From NCBI RefSeq assembly GCF_026210795.1, contig NC_089429.1:1240001-1304000 (forward strand): a DNA stretch of 64,000 nucleotides, written 5' to 3'. Both the position numbers and the translations under genes were made by a program. Positions 2,148 to 47,707 of the stretch are shown here, in pieces. How positions within the stretch are numbered: position 1 is the first letter of the stretch; every line of letters starts with the position of its first letter. A model generated the notes under the pieces. The model had not been told where the DNA came from. It did not search any database and was given only the letters and a program-made list of their open reading frames with translations. This stretch comes from Rhizophagus irregularis. Lineage: Eukaryota; Glomeromycota; Glomeromycetes; Glomerales; Glomeraceae.

Positions 2148-3623
2148 ATGTCCAAACTCAATAAAGATGTTCTTTCCCTAATATTTGATTTATTACAAGA
2201 TGATTCAAGATCCCTCTTTTCATGTCTAATGGTGAATAAACTTTGGTGTGAAACTATTATTCCAATTTTATGGAGGAATCCTTGGCGTTATGCTAGTATT
2301 AATTATAGTAATAAAAGTTATTTATTCACCATTATTTCTTATTATTTATCTAATGATATTAAAGAATTCTTAATGAAGAAAGGAATCCAATTATCAACGA
2401 TTTCATCCAAATCACTATCTTTTGATTATTTATCATTCTGTAGAAGTATCAATATAAATACTTTAAATATTATAATATCAATTGGTTCTTCATTAGCATT
2501 TAATCAATTTCTTTTACAACAAGAATTTTACATCCTCTTCATGAGAAAATTACCCGAGTTGAAGTGCTTAGATATGAGGTCAATTGAACATCAAATATTT
2601 TATTTTCCAGAAGCAAAAACTCGCTTTAAAACATTATGTGAATTAAAATGTGATACATCTATTGATTCTTCATATTTTTATGGATTAGCATGTATTTGTC
2701 AATATATACAGAGTATCATCATTATTAATGTAAAAACTGAGTCCAATCCTGGACTTGTTAAATTAATTGAAGTTCAAAAGAATCTCAAGTATTTTGAATG
2801 GATTGATGATTTTAATGATGATGATTTAGCAGATCCTTATAAAGATATCTTTCTTGAATTAGAAAAAAAGGGAGATATTCTCAATCATTTAGTATTATTT
2901 TTTCAATGGATTGAAGGTCTTGATTATCATTATAAATCAATGCAAAACTTACTCCCAAAACTTCATAAAATAAAAACCTTAATAATTAATGACATCAGTT
3001 TTGTTGACGAAACCCTATCAAAATTATTAGTTTATAATGATCTTGAAACTCTTAATGTAAGTTACATTACAGTATATGAAGCTTCTATCATAATCGAAAA
3101 TAGTGGGGGACGTCTTAAAGAAGTATCATTAAAACCTTGTAGATTTTTAATGTGTGCAAGTAATTTTAGTGTGGACTCTCTCATTTTTATCCGTAAAATT
3201 TATGAAAATTGTCCTTTAATCGAAAGTCTTTCACTTTCATTTTCATTATCAAAAGATCATCTCACTGAACTTGAAAATTTACTAAAAGTTTGTCAAAATT
3301 TGAAATCATTATTATTAATTAGAACAAATATGTATGAAAAAGGAAGTGAAGAAAATTTATTAAAATTATTAATTAAATCAGCACCAAATAATTTAAGAGA
3401 ACTTAGATTTCTTATTAAATTTGAATTCTCTTTGAAAGTCTTTGAGGAATTTTTAAAAGAATGGAGAGGACGACCTGCACTTTCTATATTAACATCTGAT
3501 CCTATTTATGAAAATGAAGATTATAAAAATTTGATTAATAATTATAAAAATGAAGGAATAATTAAAGCTTTTAAGGTAGAATCTATATGGAATATAGAAA
3601 ATATGAACTTCAAAATACAATGA
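2148..3623 (+). CDS. F-box protein with leucine-rich-repeat-like body
   Basis: Single-exon gene of 491 residues. Residues about 3-45 form an F-box-like helix set (start MSKLNKDVLSLIFDLL, then CLMVNKLWCETIIPILWRNPW), with the Trp-Cys and Leu-Trp signatures seen in fungal F-box families. The rest is rich in regularly spaced Leu, Ile and Asn typical of divergent LRR bodies. By family knowledge such proteins bind Skp1 through the F-box and present substrates to SCF ubiquitin ligases through the repeats; the substrate is unknown. The ATG follows a poly-T/A stretch and the F-box begins at once, which supports this start. It is more diverged from the other F-box genes here than they are from one another. 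No break is visible. Confidence 0.85.
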   Translation: MSKLNKDVLSLIFDLLQDDSRSLFSCLMVNKLWCETIIPILWRNPWRYASINYSNKSYLFTIISYYLSNDIKEFLMKKGIQLSTISSKSLSFDYLSFCRSININTLNIIISIGSSLAFNQFLLQQEFYILFMRKLPELKCLDMRSIEHQIFYFPEAKTRFKTLCELKCDTSIDSSYFYGLACICQYIQSIIIINVKTESNPGLVKLIEVQKNLKYFEWIDDFNDDDLADPYKDIFLELEKKGDILNHLVLFFQWIEGLDYHYKSMQNLLPKLHKIKTLIINDISFVDETLSKLLVYNDLETLNVSYITVYEASIIIENSGGRLKEVSLKPCRFLMCASNFSVDSLIFIRKIYENCPLIESLSLSFSLSKDHLTELENLLKVCQNLKSLLLIRTNMYEKGSEENLLKLLIKSAPNNLRELRFLIKFEFSLKVFEEFLKEWRGRPALSILTSDPIYENEDYKNLINNYKNEGIIKAFKVESIWNIENMNFKIQ

Positions 3624-41189: not shown

Positions 41190-44100
41190 ATGGCAAAAAG
41201 CTTCAATAGTAAAATTGCCGATACTAACAATTTGGCTCAATGGATTGAGGATGGCATTACTAAAGATTATATTAATCATCATGATTACACTGAATTTCAA
41301 AATATTCAATATATAGATTCTGGAGCATTTGGTAGTGTTTATCGAGCTACTTGGAAAAATCAAGATAGTACATTTATTGCGCTTAAATCCTTTAAATTCA
41401 ATAATGATAAATGTGTTATGAAAGAAATTGTTAATGAGGTATATAAAATTATTTTAAAATTATTAATATTTTTAATCAAATATATACTTAGCTTTCTTTT
41501 TAGGTAAAATTATTATGTAAAGTTAATTCTCACAAAAATATTATTCAATTTTTTGGGATTACTAAAAGAGAGAGTGAGTAGTAACTTATATTTAAAGCTT
41601 GATTTTTAAGAACCATAAATTTAATAATTTAATTATTTATTAGGTAACGAAAATATAGATCCAGACTATTTACTTATTCTTGAATATGCGGATGGTGGTA
41701 CATTGAGAAATTATTTAAGAAATAATTTTGACAATTTAGATTTGGATATTAAATTGCAGTTTGCTATTCAAATTGCTAATGCAGTCTCATTTATACATCA
41801 AGAAGGTATTATTCATCGTGACCTTGTAAGTAGTATTTTCTTATTCTAATTTACATCTAACATAATGTGTACTAAAATAATAATTATATTTATTCCTAAA
41901 AAATAGCATTCTAAAAATGTGTTAGTTCATGAGCAAAATATTATCAAATTAGCAGATTTTGGACTTTCACGTAGAATAGTAGAAGTATCATCAAATAATG
42001 ACATTTTAGGAATGATTCCTTATATCGATCCACAACTTCTCAAGAAACAAATGAACGATAAAAAAAAATATAAAGCAAATAAGAAATCAGATGTATATAG
42101 TGTTGGTGTGCTTCTATGGGAAATATCATCTGGTCAAATACCATTTAAATCTTATAGTGAGCATTATCAAAGGCTAGCATTAATGTCAGAAATTACAGAT
42201 GGAAAAAGAGAAATTCCAATTTCTAGTACACCAGTTGATTATATTAATATTTATACAAGTAAATTACTTTACTATATTATATTAATAATATCATTTGTTT
42301 TAATTTATTTGATATTATTACTAACTTTTATTTTTAATTTTCATAAATACTTTTCTAGAATGTTGGCAAAATAATCCAGATGATAGACCAGATATACAAC
42401 AAGTAGTTTCGGATCTAAAATCAATTAATTCAAAAACAAATGAAAAAGAAATTTACAAGAAAACTGTAAATGTTATTGAAAATGAGGTAACGAATAATAA
42501 TGATAATAGTATTAATGATAGTTCGTTAAAATTTGGTATTAATTATTCATTACAAACCAAATATGATGAATTAATAGAGGAATATGATAATATGCAAAAT
42601 GAAGAAAATTTAATGACAAATAATAATATTCATTTAAATAATGAAAATGAAACCATAATTAATGAGTTATTTTTACTATATGAGGAAGCCACTCAAAAAG
42701 GAATTTGTAAAAATGATTATATTCAATTAATTAAACAAAATATAACATCAAAAAATAAAAATGAAAATGAAATATTTAATTATTTATTAAGTAATAAGAA
42801 TAAACAAAAAAATTTAATTCTTTTAGCAAATTTTTATAAATTTGAAATAGGAACTGAAAGAAATGAAACAAAAGCATTTGAATTATACAAAGAAGTAGCT
42901 GAAAAAGGTAATATTAATGCAATAAATTATCTTGGATATTGTTACCAGCATGGAATAGGAACTGAAAGAAATGAAACAAAAGCATTTGAATTATATAAAG
43001 ATGCATATGAAAAAGGTCAGATTGATGCAATATATAATTATGGGGAATGTTATTATTATGGAATAGGAACTGAAAAAAATGAAACAATGGCATTTAAATT
43101 ATATAAAAGAGCAGTTGAGAAAAATAATATTAACGCAATACATGATCTTGGATATTGTTATCAACATGGAATAGGAACTGAAAAGAATGAAATTGAAGCA
43201 CTTGAATTATATCAGAACGCAGCTAAAAAAGGCCAGATTAATGCAATATACGATCTTGGATATTGTTATCAACATGGAATAGGAACTGAAAAAAATGTAA
43301 TTAAGGCATTTGAATTATATAAAGCAGCAGCTGAAAAAGGTCAAATTGATGCAATATATAGTCATGGATATTGTTATGATTATGGAATAGGAACTGATAA
43401 AAATAAAAGCAAAGCATTTGATTTATATAAAAAAGCAGCTAAAAAAGGTCAAATTAGAGCAACATATAGGCTTGGATATTATTACAAACATGGAATAGGA
43501 ACTGAAAAAAATGAAACTAAAGCATTTGAACTTTATAAGGACGCAGCTGAAAAAGGCCAGATTGATGCAATATATGATCTTGGCTATTGTTATCAAAATG
43601 GAATAGGAACAGAAAAAAATGAAATTAAAGCATTTAATTCATTTAAAGCAGCAGCTGAAAAAGGTCAGATTAATGCAATATATGATTTTGGTTGTTGTTA
43701 TCAAAATGGAATAGGAACAAAAAAGAATGAAATTAAGGCATTTAAATTATATGAAGAAGCAGCTCAAAAAGGTCAGATTAATGCAATACGTGATCTTGGA
43801 TATTGTTATCAAAATGGAATAGGAATCAAAAAAAATGATAATAAAGCATTTGAATTATATAATAAAGCAGCTGAAAAAGGTCAGATTAATGCAATGTATG
43901 ATCTTGTATGTTGTTATCAAAAAGGAATAGGAACTGAAAAAAATGAAATTAAAGCATTTGAATTATGTAAAAAAGCAGCCGATAAATGTCATATTAATGC
44001 AATACGTGACCTTGGATATTGTTATGAATATGGAATAGGGACCAAAAAAAATGAAATTAAAGCATTTAAATTATATGAAAAAGCAGCTGAAAAAGGTCAG

Positions 44101-44454
44101 ATTGATGCAATATATGATCTTGGATGTTGTTACAAAAAAGGAATAGGAATTGAAATAGATGAAACTAAAGCATTTGAATTATGTAAAGCAGCAGCTGAAA
44201 AAGGTCAAATCAATGCAATCCATGGTCTTGGATATTGTTATAAAAATGGGATAGGAACAGAAAAAAATGAAATTAGAGCATTTAATTCGTATAAAGCAGC
44301 AGCTGAGAAAGGTCAGATTGATGCAATATATGATCTTGGATTTTGTTATCAAAATGGAATAGGAACAGAAAGAAATAAAATCAAAGCATTTGAATTATAT
44401 AAAGAAGCAGCTGAGAAAGGACATATTGATGCAAAGAAAATGCTGTTATTATAG
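41190..44454 (+). CDS. Protein kinase fused to fifteen Sel1 repeats
   Basis: Five exons inferred: 41190-41438, 41504-41573, 41644-41825, 41907-42258, 42359-44454, joining to 982 codons plus stop. The kinase domain (about 35-290) has the glycine loop DSGAFGSVYRA, IALKSF, HRDLHSKN, DFGLS and, instead of APE, PYIDPQ. A linker rich in Asn and Glu follows. From about residue 447 to the end there are fifteen Sel1-type repeats of 36 residues (108 bp), consensus DLGYCYQNGIGTEKNEIKAF then LYKAAAEKGQI(D/N)AI. Sel1 repeats form TPR-like helical solenoids for protein binding, so the tail probably recruits partners or substrates. This kinase-Sel1 fusion is a known expansion in Rhizophagus. The repeats are very alike at DNA level, so copy number can change by unequal crossing-over. 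The last intron is inferred from frame continuity with ECW/KCWQNNPDDRP motif placement. Confidence 0.92.
42838..44450 (+). repeat. 108-bp tandem repeats encoding Sel1 units
   Basis: Fifteen coding units in register; GGAATAGGAACTGAAA and AAAGGTCAGATT(A/G)ATGCAAT recur once per unit. Confidence 0.9.
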
Positions 44455-45300
44455 AATAGAAACTGATAAAAATTGATATTGAATGAAACTTTGCTAACAA
44501 CGCTAAATTTTCATAATGAATTGTGCGATCCTTGTACAAGCTTTGTACAAGGTATTTTTAAATTTAATAAATATAGTACAATATTTCCAACAATATTTGC
44601 AAACACTTGTAAAATACATATTATTATGAATATTTGGGTTTACAAAATATCTAATTTATACATATATAATGTACAATAAAATTTGCAATTAATTAATAAA
44701 AAATAAACTTGTGGGATTACTATTTACTAAATATTTTCGCAAATATATAATTAAATTGAATGTAATAGAGTTTTTTACTTTTGTCCAAATCCTCCACTAT
44801 TTTATTTTTATTTTTAAATTCCATGTGAACAAGTCACGATACAAATTACAGAACGAACTATACGTTAGCCTAAAGTAATTCTAAATTAAATCAATTAAAT
44901 CGTGAACCAAACCGCCAAATCTGACAGCGCCACTTTTGCCCAAATCCACAATGACCTTAGCTTTCACAACCACATTCGCGTCAGCGTCCATGTGACCACG
45001 TCCACGAGATCTTGAGGATTCCAATAGATTCAGATCAATATTATTAGTAATAAATAATAAAAAAAAATTTATCTCACATATCGGGGAAAGCCCTACTACA
45101 GTTTGATCTAAACTTTTTTACTCGCTATTTCCCCTTTTCCTTCATTTTTTCACCCATTTCCTTTTCCTTCATTTTCCTTTCGTTCCTTCTCCCCTTCCTT
45201 CATTTCCTTTTCCCTTTCCATCCTTTCTTTTCCGTATTTTATTTAAAAAAGTGTTGAAATCACCCACAAAAAAAAAACAAAATGTTTATACGTTTCTATT
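44455..45300. other. Spacer with a short minus-strand frame and pyrimidine-rich tract
   Basis: 44886-45060 on the minus strand reads SRSRGRGHMDADANVVVKAK, VDLGKSGAVRFGG and a stop, a GC-richer piece of unknown origin. 45125-45240 is a C/T-rich repeat with TTCCTTCATTTTCC motifs. Confidence 0.4.
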
Positions 45301-45312
45301 TTTCCTTTTTAG

Positions 45313-46621
45313 GTAGCTCCTTCAGTCTTCTGGACGCGATATTTTGTAAGTTTTTAATTTATTTTTCATTAATATTTTAATGAACAACTACTAACAGGTC
45401 ATTTTAGTTTTTTAGGCGGTTCTTTGGGTCTCTTTGGACACATGAGATTTTGTTTTTGGTAAGTTTTTTACTATTTTAATTTATCTATTCTAACTAAATA
45501 TATGTTAACGTATCAAATTTTATCTTTTTTATTTAGACGGGCTGAACACTTTGATTTCATATTTCGAATTTTGGTGAACTACATTTTTTTCAAATTAATT
45601 CTTTAACGAAACATTTCTTATGGTTTGTTTTCTTATTTTTTAGATTACCAGGAAGGTTGCTTTGAAGACAGGATTTCGGTAAGTGAAATGAAATTTTTTT
45701 TCAACAAATTTTACTAACAGTTCTTTTTCCTTTTTTTTAGGTGACTTTTCAATTCTTTGGATATGTGGGATGGCGTTCAGAGCTTTTGACATGTTGAATT
45801 CTGTGAGTGAGTTTCTTGTTCTTTTTAATTTACAGTAACAAAACGTTTTACTGACATTTTGATTTCCTCTTTTTTAGACAGCCAATCTTTGAGCACATAT
45901 TATTTTGGTAGGAGTTCCAAAAAAAATATACTTTTTTTAATTTATTTCTTTAGTGAAACGTTTTACAATTTTTTCTTTTTTTAGACGACCAGGTCCCTTA
46001 TCTCGGTAAGGGCTTCCGAAAAAAATATTTTTTTTTCAATTTATTTCTTTAGCAAAACGTTATACTAACGATTTTGTTTTTTATTGTTTTTATTATTTTT
46101 TAGGCAATTCTTTGGACAAGCGGCTTAAGTTGTTGTTTTATTCTTAATTTGAGTTTTCTAGTCTCTTATATGGATATAGGAATTTGGTAAGTGTTTTTTT
46201 TTTAATTCATTTTATTATTAGTTTAACAAACAGTTACTAACTTTCATTTTCTTTCTTTTTTTTTAGATGGTTCTTTGGATATTGGGATTTTTGGCAATAT
46301 AAGATTCATTTTTTTTTCTTTATTGCGCTTTTTAACGAACTGTTACTAACAGTTTTTTTAGGTGGTTCACCGGATCTCTTAAACGTAGATTCAGTGAGTG
46401 GTGTTTTCTTTTATTTTAAATTAACTCTTTCAACGGAACATTTTTAATATTTCAGTTCTTTTTTTTCTTAGGTGGTTCTTTCAGTTTCTTTTAATGCAAA
46501 ATTTCGGTAAGATACTCCCTTTTTTTCTTGAATTTATTTTTTATTTTAATGAATAGTTTCTAATTGTTTGTTATTTTTTTTAGGCATTCCTTTGGTTCTT
46601 TGGATGTGGGATTTGATTTTG
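45313..46621 (+). repeat. Tandem array of about twelve micro-exon-like cassettes
   Basis: Units of roughly 100-200 bp each show a T-rich tract ending in AG, a GC-richer core of 20-85 bp with GGTTCTTTGG(A)T and GGGATTTTG-like text, a donor GTAAG/GTGAG, an AT-rich stretch with AACGAAACGTTTTACTAAC, then the next T-tract. Cores: 45313-45345, 45416-45458, 45537-45573, 45644-45678, 45741-45802, 45878-45907, 45985-46005, 46104-46186, one near 46267, 46362-46393, 46472-46506, 46584-46621. TACTAAC-type branch sites lie before several acceptors. Joining the cores gives stops, so no protein is evident. It reads as an amplified exon-intron unit, possibly of a non-coding transcript. Confidence 0.6.
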
Positions 46622-46639
46622 GTGAGTATATTATTTATT

Positions 46640-47707
46640 TAAATTTTTTATTTCCGTCTTAAAATGATTACTAAATTTTTATTTTCTCCTTTTTTTTTTA
46701 TACAATGCATTATATACAAACCATGTTAAGTTGTTAGCAAAGAAGATAATATGTATTAGGCGTTATCCTGGTCCCTGGCTGCTAGGTACGGAATAAATTA
46801 ATATTAAACTATAAAGGTTCTTAGCTTATAAGAAGCAGTGGTTAATGTTAATGACATAGTCTTGTACATTATTACAAATATGGAATAGAAACAAAAAAGA
46901 TAATATTGAATCTATAAAATTATATTAAAAATAGAATATCGCCAAGCAGTTTGGATGATATTTTAACAACTATTCAATAACTATTTTATTATGCAGACAT
47001 GCTTCATATAAATAAATCCAATAAGCCATTTAGTTACATGATATAGTATTTTATCTGTAAAATTTAGTATATATATACTTAATAAAATAAATTAGTTTAG
47101 AAAATAAAATAAAGGCTCATTTTTTTTTAGAAAAGAAATTTCTAAAAAAGGTAAAACTTATCTTAGTTTCTCAATACTATGGTCCTACCAATAAGGACTT
47201 CCAAAGAGGTGCACTATGCTCCACCCTGAAAAAACTCAACAACAACAAGGAAAGAGATCACTAGTTGAAGGAAAGAAATTAATGAAATATGAAAAAGAAT
47301 TAATTTAGCAGCTTTTATATTTTTATACATCAACTATACTGTAAGTGTAGCAAATTTTATCCTAATTGTTTAATTGCAGTTTAAGGGCTATGGAATTGTT
47401 ACTTACTACTTTAAAATATTAAATTTGATTTAATCTTTTAAAAAAAAATCTATTATTATTGTAACAAGCTTCTGTAATCTATAATATAAACCTCAAATAA
47501 ACTTATATTTGTTAGTTATTCATTTGGTACAGCTAGCAACTAGCAAGCTTTAAAATAAGTGTTAATTAAACGAAAGCATTAAATATTAACTATCAGATAA
47601 TGCAGATTTCGTTCTGGACACTGTCCTCAAATACTTGTCAGAATTGAGCCACTTTTAAATATACATTATTAGATTGGGTAACATCAAAGTGATCAAACAA
47701 TGTTATT
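46640..47707. other. Spacer with a Sel1-repeat scrap
   Basis: 46870-46925 on the plus strand reads YYKYGIETKK then, after a one-base shift, a piece matching the Sel1 repeat of the gene at 41190. Otherwise nothing is supported. Confidence 0.4.

Follow-up and report, generated by a model that had tools for sequence, protein, structure and literature searches.

A Row of Micro-Exon-Like Units Inside a Dispersed, Non-Autonomous and Putatively Plavaka-Like DNA Transposon of Rhizophagus irregularis

Genomic Context and Architecture of the Array

The window, that is, the whole 64-kb stretch of DNA analyzed here (C1:1240001-1304000 of a Rhizophagus irregularis genome of 146.7 Mb in 32 contigs), contains a non-autonomous transposable element with perfect 13-bp terminal inverted repeats (TIRs) and an AA duplication on either side, and this element encloses a row of micro-exon-like units (Table 1). 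A kinase-like frame followed by a Sel1-repeat frame lies upstream on the same strand (window 41907-44489), and the element begins about 35 bp past the stop codon of the Sel1-repeat frame, so that read-through from this gene would enter the array.

Table 1. Positions, within the window, of the transposon, its ends, and the units of its internal array
Feature	Positions	Strand	Remarks
Left target-site duplication	44487-44488		AA
Left TIR	44489-44501	+	CTTTGCTAACAAC, 13 bp
Whole non-autonomous TIR element	44489-46742	+	2254 bp; C1:1284489-1286742
Pyrimidine-rich stretch, then TATTTTATTTAAAA	45120-45250	+	Possibly promoter-like; read by eye; similar text in several other copies
Micro-exon 1	45313-45345	+	33 nt
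Micro-exon 2	45416-45458	+	43 nt
Micro-exon 3	45537-45573	+	37 nt
Micro-exon 4	45644-45678	+	35 nt
Micro-exon 5	45741-45802	+	62 nt
Micro-exon 6	45878-45907	+	30 nt
Micro-exon 7	45985-46005	+	21 nt
Micro-exon 8	46104-46186	+	83 nt
Micro-exon 9	46267-46293	+	27 nt; donor GC instead of GT
Micro-exon 10	46362-46393	+	32 nt
Micro-exon 11	46472-46506	+	35 nt
Micro-exon 12	46584-46621	+	38 nt; further units 3' of it in other copies
Break	46696-46729	+	Homology to longer copies ends at about 46696; probably through an internal deletion that brought array and right end together
Right TIR	46730-46742	-	Exact reverse complement of the left TIR
Right target-site duplication	46743-46744		AA

The twelve units reported by the initial annotation were found at the places given there, tiling positions 45313-46621 of the plus strand without interruption by a failed unit. 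All 12 acceptors are TAG and 11 of the 12 donors are GT, the exception being unit 9, and the spacers between cores measure 62-98 nt. A strict regular-expression scan detected eight acceptor-donor pairs in the array, compared with 0.53 ± 0.70 (maximum 3) in 1000 dinucleotide shuffles; five of these pairs are exactly the listed units and three use a nearby alternative site, and the best 1340-base slice outside the array, on either strand, holds two strict pairs. The motif TACTAAC, described initially as often preceding the next acceptor, is present in five of the 11 spacers (before units 2, 5, 8, 9, and 10) but not in the rest. Its five occurrences in the array compare with a mean of 0.08 (maximum 3) in 1000 shuffled arrays, and the remainder of the 64-kb window contains three on the plus strand and five on the minus strand. 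The GGTTCTTTGG-like text attributed to the cores does exist, but GGTTCTTTGG occurs just three times and TTCTTTGG five times, so such text marks only some units. Similarity between the cores of the array barely exceeds that between shuffled cores. Scans of the window returned no Rfam family reaching the gathering threshold and no tRNA.

Boundaries, Target-Site Duplication, and Dispersal of the Element

Two patterns derived from the TIRs are strongly enriched in the genome, with 193 matches for CTTTGCAGAAACY compared with 3 for the reversed pattern, and 68 matches for CTTTGCTAACAAY compared with 8 for the reversed control. Inverted pairs of these TIR types were assembled from two sources, 20 being chosen by spacing (drawn from 100 of the 193 CTTTGCAGAAACY sites and all 68 CTTTGCTAACAAY sites) and 11 coming from loci already in the analysis. 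A perfect 2-bp duplication flanks 30 of these 31 pairs, whereas 3 bp match in none and 4 bp in one, and random pairing of left and right flanks gave a 2-bp match in a mean of 12 and a maximum of 19 (2000 pairings). The sole exception, L023, adjoins another TIR. A TA-only, mariner-like duplication was rejected, as the 30 duplications comprise TA (18), TT (6), AA (2), and AC, TG, AT, and GA (one each).

The search for other arrays that the initial annotation had proposed yielded at least 65 genome matches to the window array, its own copy included, a lower bound since scoring covered 40 of the 120 candidate places. Inverted repeats at both ends, a duplication of fixed length, and dispersed copies with shared boundaries identify the element as a TIR DNA transposon. 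In seven loci (L009, L010, L012, L013, L014, L015, and L016) the matches to the window copy stop at 46695-46697, and longer copies of its subfamily carry additional micro-exon-like units 3' of this break, as read by eye.

Splice pairs were also scanned in 13 stretches, namely 12 elements bounded by TIRs and a 4.1-kb part of a 7.9-kb element on contig C13. They were found in 11 of the 13, each time confined to one strand (plus/minus counts: window 9/0, L025 6/0, L031 5/0, L023 6/0, L017 2/0, L019 3/0, L028 0/7, L011 3/0, L046 8/0, L047 0/3, and L048 0/7), and were absent from L089 (0/0) and from the 4.1 kb scanned of the C13 element (0/0). Their number lies above all 200 shuffles in nine of the 13 stretches, while L017 and L047 merely equal the shuffled maximum. 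Three members of a sister subfamily (L023, L025, and L031), situated on three contigs, are 94-99% identical along some 2.88 kb, and elements with arrays have thus moved recently; some splice sites of these young copies already appear broken by eye. Young array copies lie around C22:2816000-2819200, C17:1478000-1481200, and C7:2588400-2591300.

Two further observations concern the ends of the elements. Locus L011 (C3:5602000-5610000) is a hybrid in which B-type TIR ends enclose A-type array sequence. In addition, TIR motifs in the same orientation lie 256-257 bp apart at five places, as if a short end block had been doubled (C3:4993308/4993565 and C11:1737200/1737457, both of mixed type; C8:1162025/1162281; C13:2136983/2137239; and C13:3348195/3348451).

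Transposase Frames and Affinity to Plavaka

Transposase-like frames occur in two larger elements, L089 (7.1 kb, TIRs CTTTGCTAACAACCTAAAAT, duplication TA) and C13:607054-614974 (7.9 kb, duplication TT by reading, outside the 31 pairs). One piece of L089 has at least 150 genome matches (150 of 236 candidates scored). Ten pieces of L089 compared with Pfam matched no transposase family, and the search for a relative of one transposase piece among solved structures gave a chance-level match only (E 0.86). A 530-aa frame of L092, a relative, has 298 homologues; among the 120 matches listed, P0124 (39% identity) carries Pfam Plavaka, and those with a named organism belong to Rhizophagus, Gigaspora, and one Chryseobacterium metagenome bin. 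A hypothetical protein of Rhizophagus irregularis DAOM 181602 matches the L092 frame with 100% identity across 88% of the query, and the frame's own Pfam Plavaka match is sub-threshold (E 0.0063).

According to an excerpt of PMC12730594, Plavaka belongs together with EnSpm, Mirage, Chapaev, and Transib in a group marked by duplications of 2-5 bp and, mostly, CA..TG termini, and the termini of PlavakaA and PlavakaB are TGT..ACA and CATCA..TGATG; Plavaka is described as prevalent in R. irregularis strains in an excerpt of PMC11075540. The 2-bp duplication of the elements described here fits the 2-5 bp of Plavaka/CMCT, whereas their CTTTGC..GCAAAG termini depart from the 5'-CA..TG-3' form of that group and from the termini of both PlavakaA and PlavakaB, which were rejected as assignments. 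The TIRs, the 2-bp duplication, and the putatively Plavaka-like transposase frames enclosed by TIRs of this type relate the elements to Plavaka/CMCT, and the different termini, together with a window copy that contains a micro-exon array and no transposase, distinguish them from it. Since a homologue carries Pfam Plavaka, the frame's own match is sub-threshold, and the PlavakaA/B termini differ, the window element is best regarded as Plavaka-like and not filed as PlavakaA or PlavakaB.

Divergence of Splice Sites, Cores, and Spacers

Within the subfamily, the window was aligned with nine segments taken from eight further loci, with blocks below 65% identity excluded and with pyrimidine tracts, branch sites, and donor positions 3-5 tallied separately. 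Identity between the window and its subfamily is 0.862 in cores, 0.868 in spacers, 0.843 in GT, and 0.933 in AG, and the corresponding values for all subfamily pairs are 0.859, 0.870, 0.886, and 0.875, so that decay in the subfamily is close to neutral. Between subfamilies, identical positions amount to 64/67 for GT, 78/89 for AG, 504/564 for pyrimidine tracts, 2032/2498 for spacers, and 956/1237 for cores, figures drawn from 31 local alignments of the window with 18 loci that are non-independent (L023/L025 and L046/L048 are near-copies) and contain few GT and AG cells. The core identity is thus 0.773, and AG (0.876) is no better kept than the pyrimidine tract (0.894). Equal divergence of cores and spacers, together with lost conservation of GT/AG, had been named initially as part of what would speak against an array of splicing units. 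This pattern is largely what the window's subfamily exhibits, with equal decay and GT/AG little or no better kept, but it does not extend to the comparison between subfamilies. There, GT, and less clearly AG, were apparently kept on the source branches while the cores drifted; since GT is better kept than the cores, splicing apparently mattered in the source lineage and not in the decayed window copy.

Building on the transposon anatomy, the dispersal, the confinement of arrays to one strand, the conservation of GT between subfamilies, and an array without coding signal, the array is probably the transcription unit inside a non-autonomous cut-and-paste transposon that is mobilized in trans by a Plavaka-like transposase, with source copies that were spliced and a window copy that has decayed. 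The rival that survives best, although unlikely, is a passive hitch-hiker, in which slippage or gap repair multiplied an exon-intron unit into a tandem row and its inherited splice signals have no role. The neutral decay among copies of the subfamily speaks for such an origin, as does the finding that recently moved copies contain fewer strict pairs (L025, 6; L031, 5; L023, 6) than the window (9), some of their sites being broken by eye. However, the retention of GT between subfamilies despite drifting cores, the tiling of 12 units without a failed one when the cores resemble each other barely more than shuffled text, and the restriction of arrays to one strand all argue against it.

Intron Hairpins and a Second Array Family

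A second dispersed array family is represented by L093 (C3:76800-80800) and L095 (C1:5228900-5230600), with at least 181 genome matches to L093 (40 of 1156 candidates scored). Most introns of this family fold into a donor hairpin and a branch-point hairpin, with a mean fold z of -4.0 for 14 introns, 10 of them below -2, and of -4.6 for a second set of 6, 5 of them below -2. The hairpin arms differ between introns yet stay complementary, and rows of hairpins of about 28 nt, without exons, lie upstream of the arrays. When two copies of the L093 family were compared at the right end, the shared sequence was seen to run to ...GCTGATGT, which resembles the PlavakaB end TGATG. The stretch CACCTTGTTATGGTTGTGTCACCAGGGG... 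is common, by eye, to L041 (about 1595-1700) and L093 (about 3510-3600), downstream of two different arrays, and could represent a SINE or a 3' end that both have in common.

The spacer motif TTTAACGAA(3-8)CTAACRNTTC has 141 matches in the genome, compared with none for the reversed control. Among the 100 matches listed of these 141, arm position 1 pairs in 88 (shuffle mean 60, maximum 74 of 10,000), and arm position 2 pairs in 61 of 74 (mean 55, maximum 64). For the 61 distinct matches among those listed, pairing is found in 51 of 61 at position 1 (mean 35, maximum 46) and in 34 of 43 at position 2 (mean 33, maximum 38), so the support for pairing lies at one position. A donor-stem test (stem ≥7) was positive for 4/13 in L093 and 1/6 in L095, and for 0/10 in the window, 0/13 in L046, 0/10 in L042, and 0/4 in the 3' part of L009. 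Over 105 introns, a longest stem of ≥6 was found in a fraction of 0.37 compared with 0.27, a weak difference, and a branch-point stem was present in 22 of 84 introns against an expected fraction of 0.108. Ten window-type arrays showed no hairpin excess (mean z -1.24 to 0.34), and hairpins were discarded as a trait of the window array, with a mean fold z of -0.52 over nine introns, two of them below -2.

An extension of the preferred reading, which we consider quite unlikely, is that several Plavaka-like lineages of R. irregularis are armored with long tandem micro-exon arrays, some with twin-hairpin introns (at donor and branch point), and that their over-spliced transcripts would either evade silencing guided by RNA or release defined hairpins from their introns, which would feed the silencing machinery or jam it.

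Coding Potential of the Array

As initially proposed, the array consists of repeated exon-intron units and is neither a coding repeat nor a plain minisatellite. Core lengths modulo 3 are mixed, and the joined cores have no continuous frame. When distinct indels of up to 25 nt were counted, multiples of three made up 13/48 in cores and 27/99 in spacers, and the array indels thus show no coding signal. A micro-exon gene of the MEG type was rejected on the grounds of these exon lengths and the frame not being kept, and an effector of the SP7 type was rejected because the signal peptide and hydrophilic protein repeats described in an excerpt of the SP7 paper do not fit the array.

A decayed protein-coding micro-exon gene inside the element, for a secreted or transposon-helper protein with exons formerly in frame, is improbable. 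A short frame with an ATG at 45282 does run through units 1-2 when these are joined, and protein-like pieces are found inside sister elements; however, most unit lengths are not divisible by three and the lengths vary among copies, indels in multiples of three are no commoner in cores than in spacers, the joined exons do not read through, and the captured fragment of the young copies holds a stop codon.

Host Sequences in Related Elements

At the level of sequence, some sister elements have arrays that include parts of host genes or lead into them. An exon of the sister subfamily (L023, L025, and L031) matches, over 149 bp with 75% identity (E 5.5e-23), a frame of 1298 aa at C16:1705050, and the matched part lies inside a sub-threshold Pfam ZNFX1 stretch of that frame (24.3 bits, cut-off 27, E 3.2e-5). 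The fragment is sense to the array and contains an identical in-frame stop in L023, L025, and L031, and four translated fragments of the sister element matched no Pfam family. On the minus strand of L047 (C9:2046650-2050460), the array leads straight into a stretch of the same orientation with a protein-like frame. At C10:4849000-5013000 there is a dense cluster resembling the gene 3' of copy L009, which is cytochrome P450-like by reading.

The initial suggestion of a single host locus, either an alternative-exon cassette or a splicing decoy, is contradicted by the membership of the array in a dispersed transposon family. A host non-coding RNA gene, cassette, or decoy with coincidental transposon flanks would suit the dense consensus splice signals, but arrays akin to it are found repeatedly between TIRs that have 2-bp duplications, and the window copy decays neutrally, which leaves this explanation highly improbable. 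ZNFX1-like helicases are RNA-silencing factors in other organisms, and DNA transposons commonly capture pieces of genes. Anti-silencing target mimicry, in which the sense helicase piece of the sister subfamily would yield small RNAs against that gene, could draw on the presence of this ZNFX1-like fragment in three recently moved copies, but is scarcely credible given an identity to the closest gene found that is low for RNA silencing, a window copy in which no such fragment was recognized in the course of the other analyses, and the frequency of gene capture among DNA transposons.

Proposed Mechanism and Comparison with Known Systems

For the preferred reading, that of an internal transcription unit of a transposon, the following course of events may be proposed. 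A Plavaka-like transposase (CMC group) would recognize the CTTTGC... terminal repeats and leave a 2-bp duplication, and the window copy would have been moved in trans by such an enzyme. Inside the elements, an exon-intron unit would have been duplicated in tandem, lining up non-coding micro-exons in rows downstream of a promoter-like stretch, from whose pyrimidine-rich sequence transcription would start to produce an RNA that is then spliced. Mobile source copies would have kept their splice signals while the exon sequence drifted; after insertion, copies would have decayed neutrally, including that of the window, which would also have lost its 3' part and is most likely inert. Similar rows in its genomic relatives suggest that the transposons of this family formerly produced RNA that was heavily spliced. 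In other organisms, introns shield transcripts from some silencing systems. The most plausible role of the array would be to supply the element with a much-spliced RNA that the surveillance of the host handles as it would the transcript of a gene, and that, as an intron-rich leader, could also splice captured exons. Either protection from silencing or the splicing of captured exons would explain the upkeep of splice sites in moving copies, and this benefit is the least certain part of the proposal.

Several known systems share features with these elements. Introner elements are repeated introns linked to DNA transposons; here, however, the introns stand in tandem within one transposon, and the TIRs bound the whole element and not single introns. 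Pack-MULE, Pack-CACTA, and Pack-TIR are gene-capturing non-autonomous DNA transposons, and the sense ZNFX1-like host fragment inside the sister elements is reminiscent of them, whereas the main cargo here is a tandem micro-exon array, and the window copy has no recognized host fragment. In the literature searched by titles and abstract openings, no description of such arrays was found; the nearest in theme is a paper reportedly on differential splicing of maize Helitron transcripts (PMC4528327). Schistosome micro-exon genes and aphid bicycle genes have small exons, and the arrays resemble them in that small exons with strong splice sites follow one another in a row, but differ in having no reading frame or symmetric exons and in being mobile and dispersed. 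Aphid bicycle effector genes are named as such in an excerpt of PMC11333574.

According to excerpts of two sources, R. irregularis has abundant small RNAs, with Nanopore and small-RNA data sets in existence (PMC10234402), and about two thirds of its transposable elements are unclassified (PMC11075540). The TIR class with a 2-bp duplication offers a handle for classifying some of these elements. If the source copies were truly spliced so heavily, DNA transposons would furnish rows of exons and introns ready-made, and the elements would provide a natural test of the effects of introns on transposon silencing in a mycorrhizal fungus.
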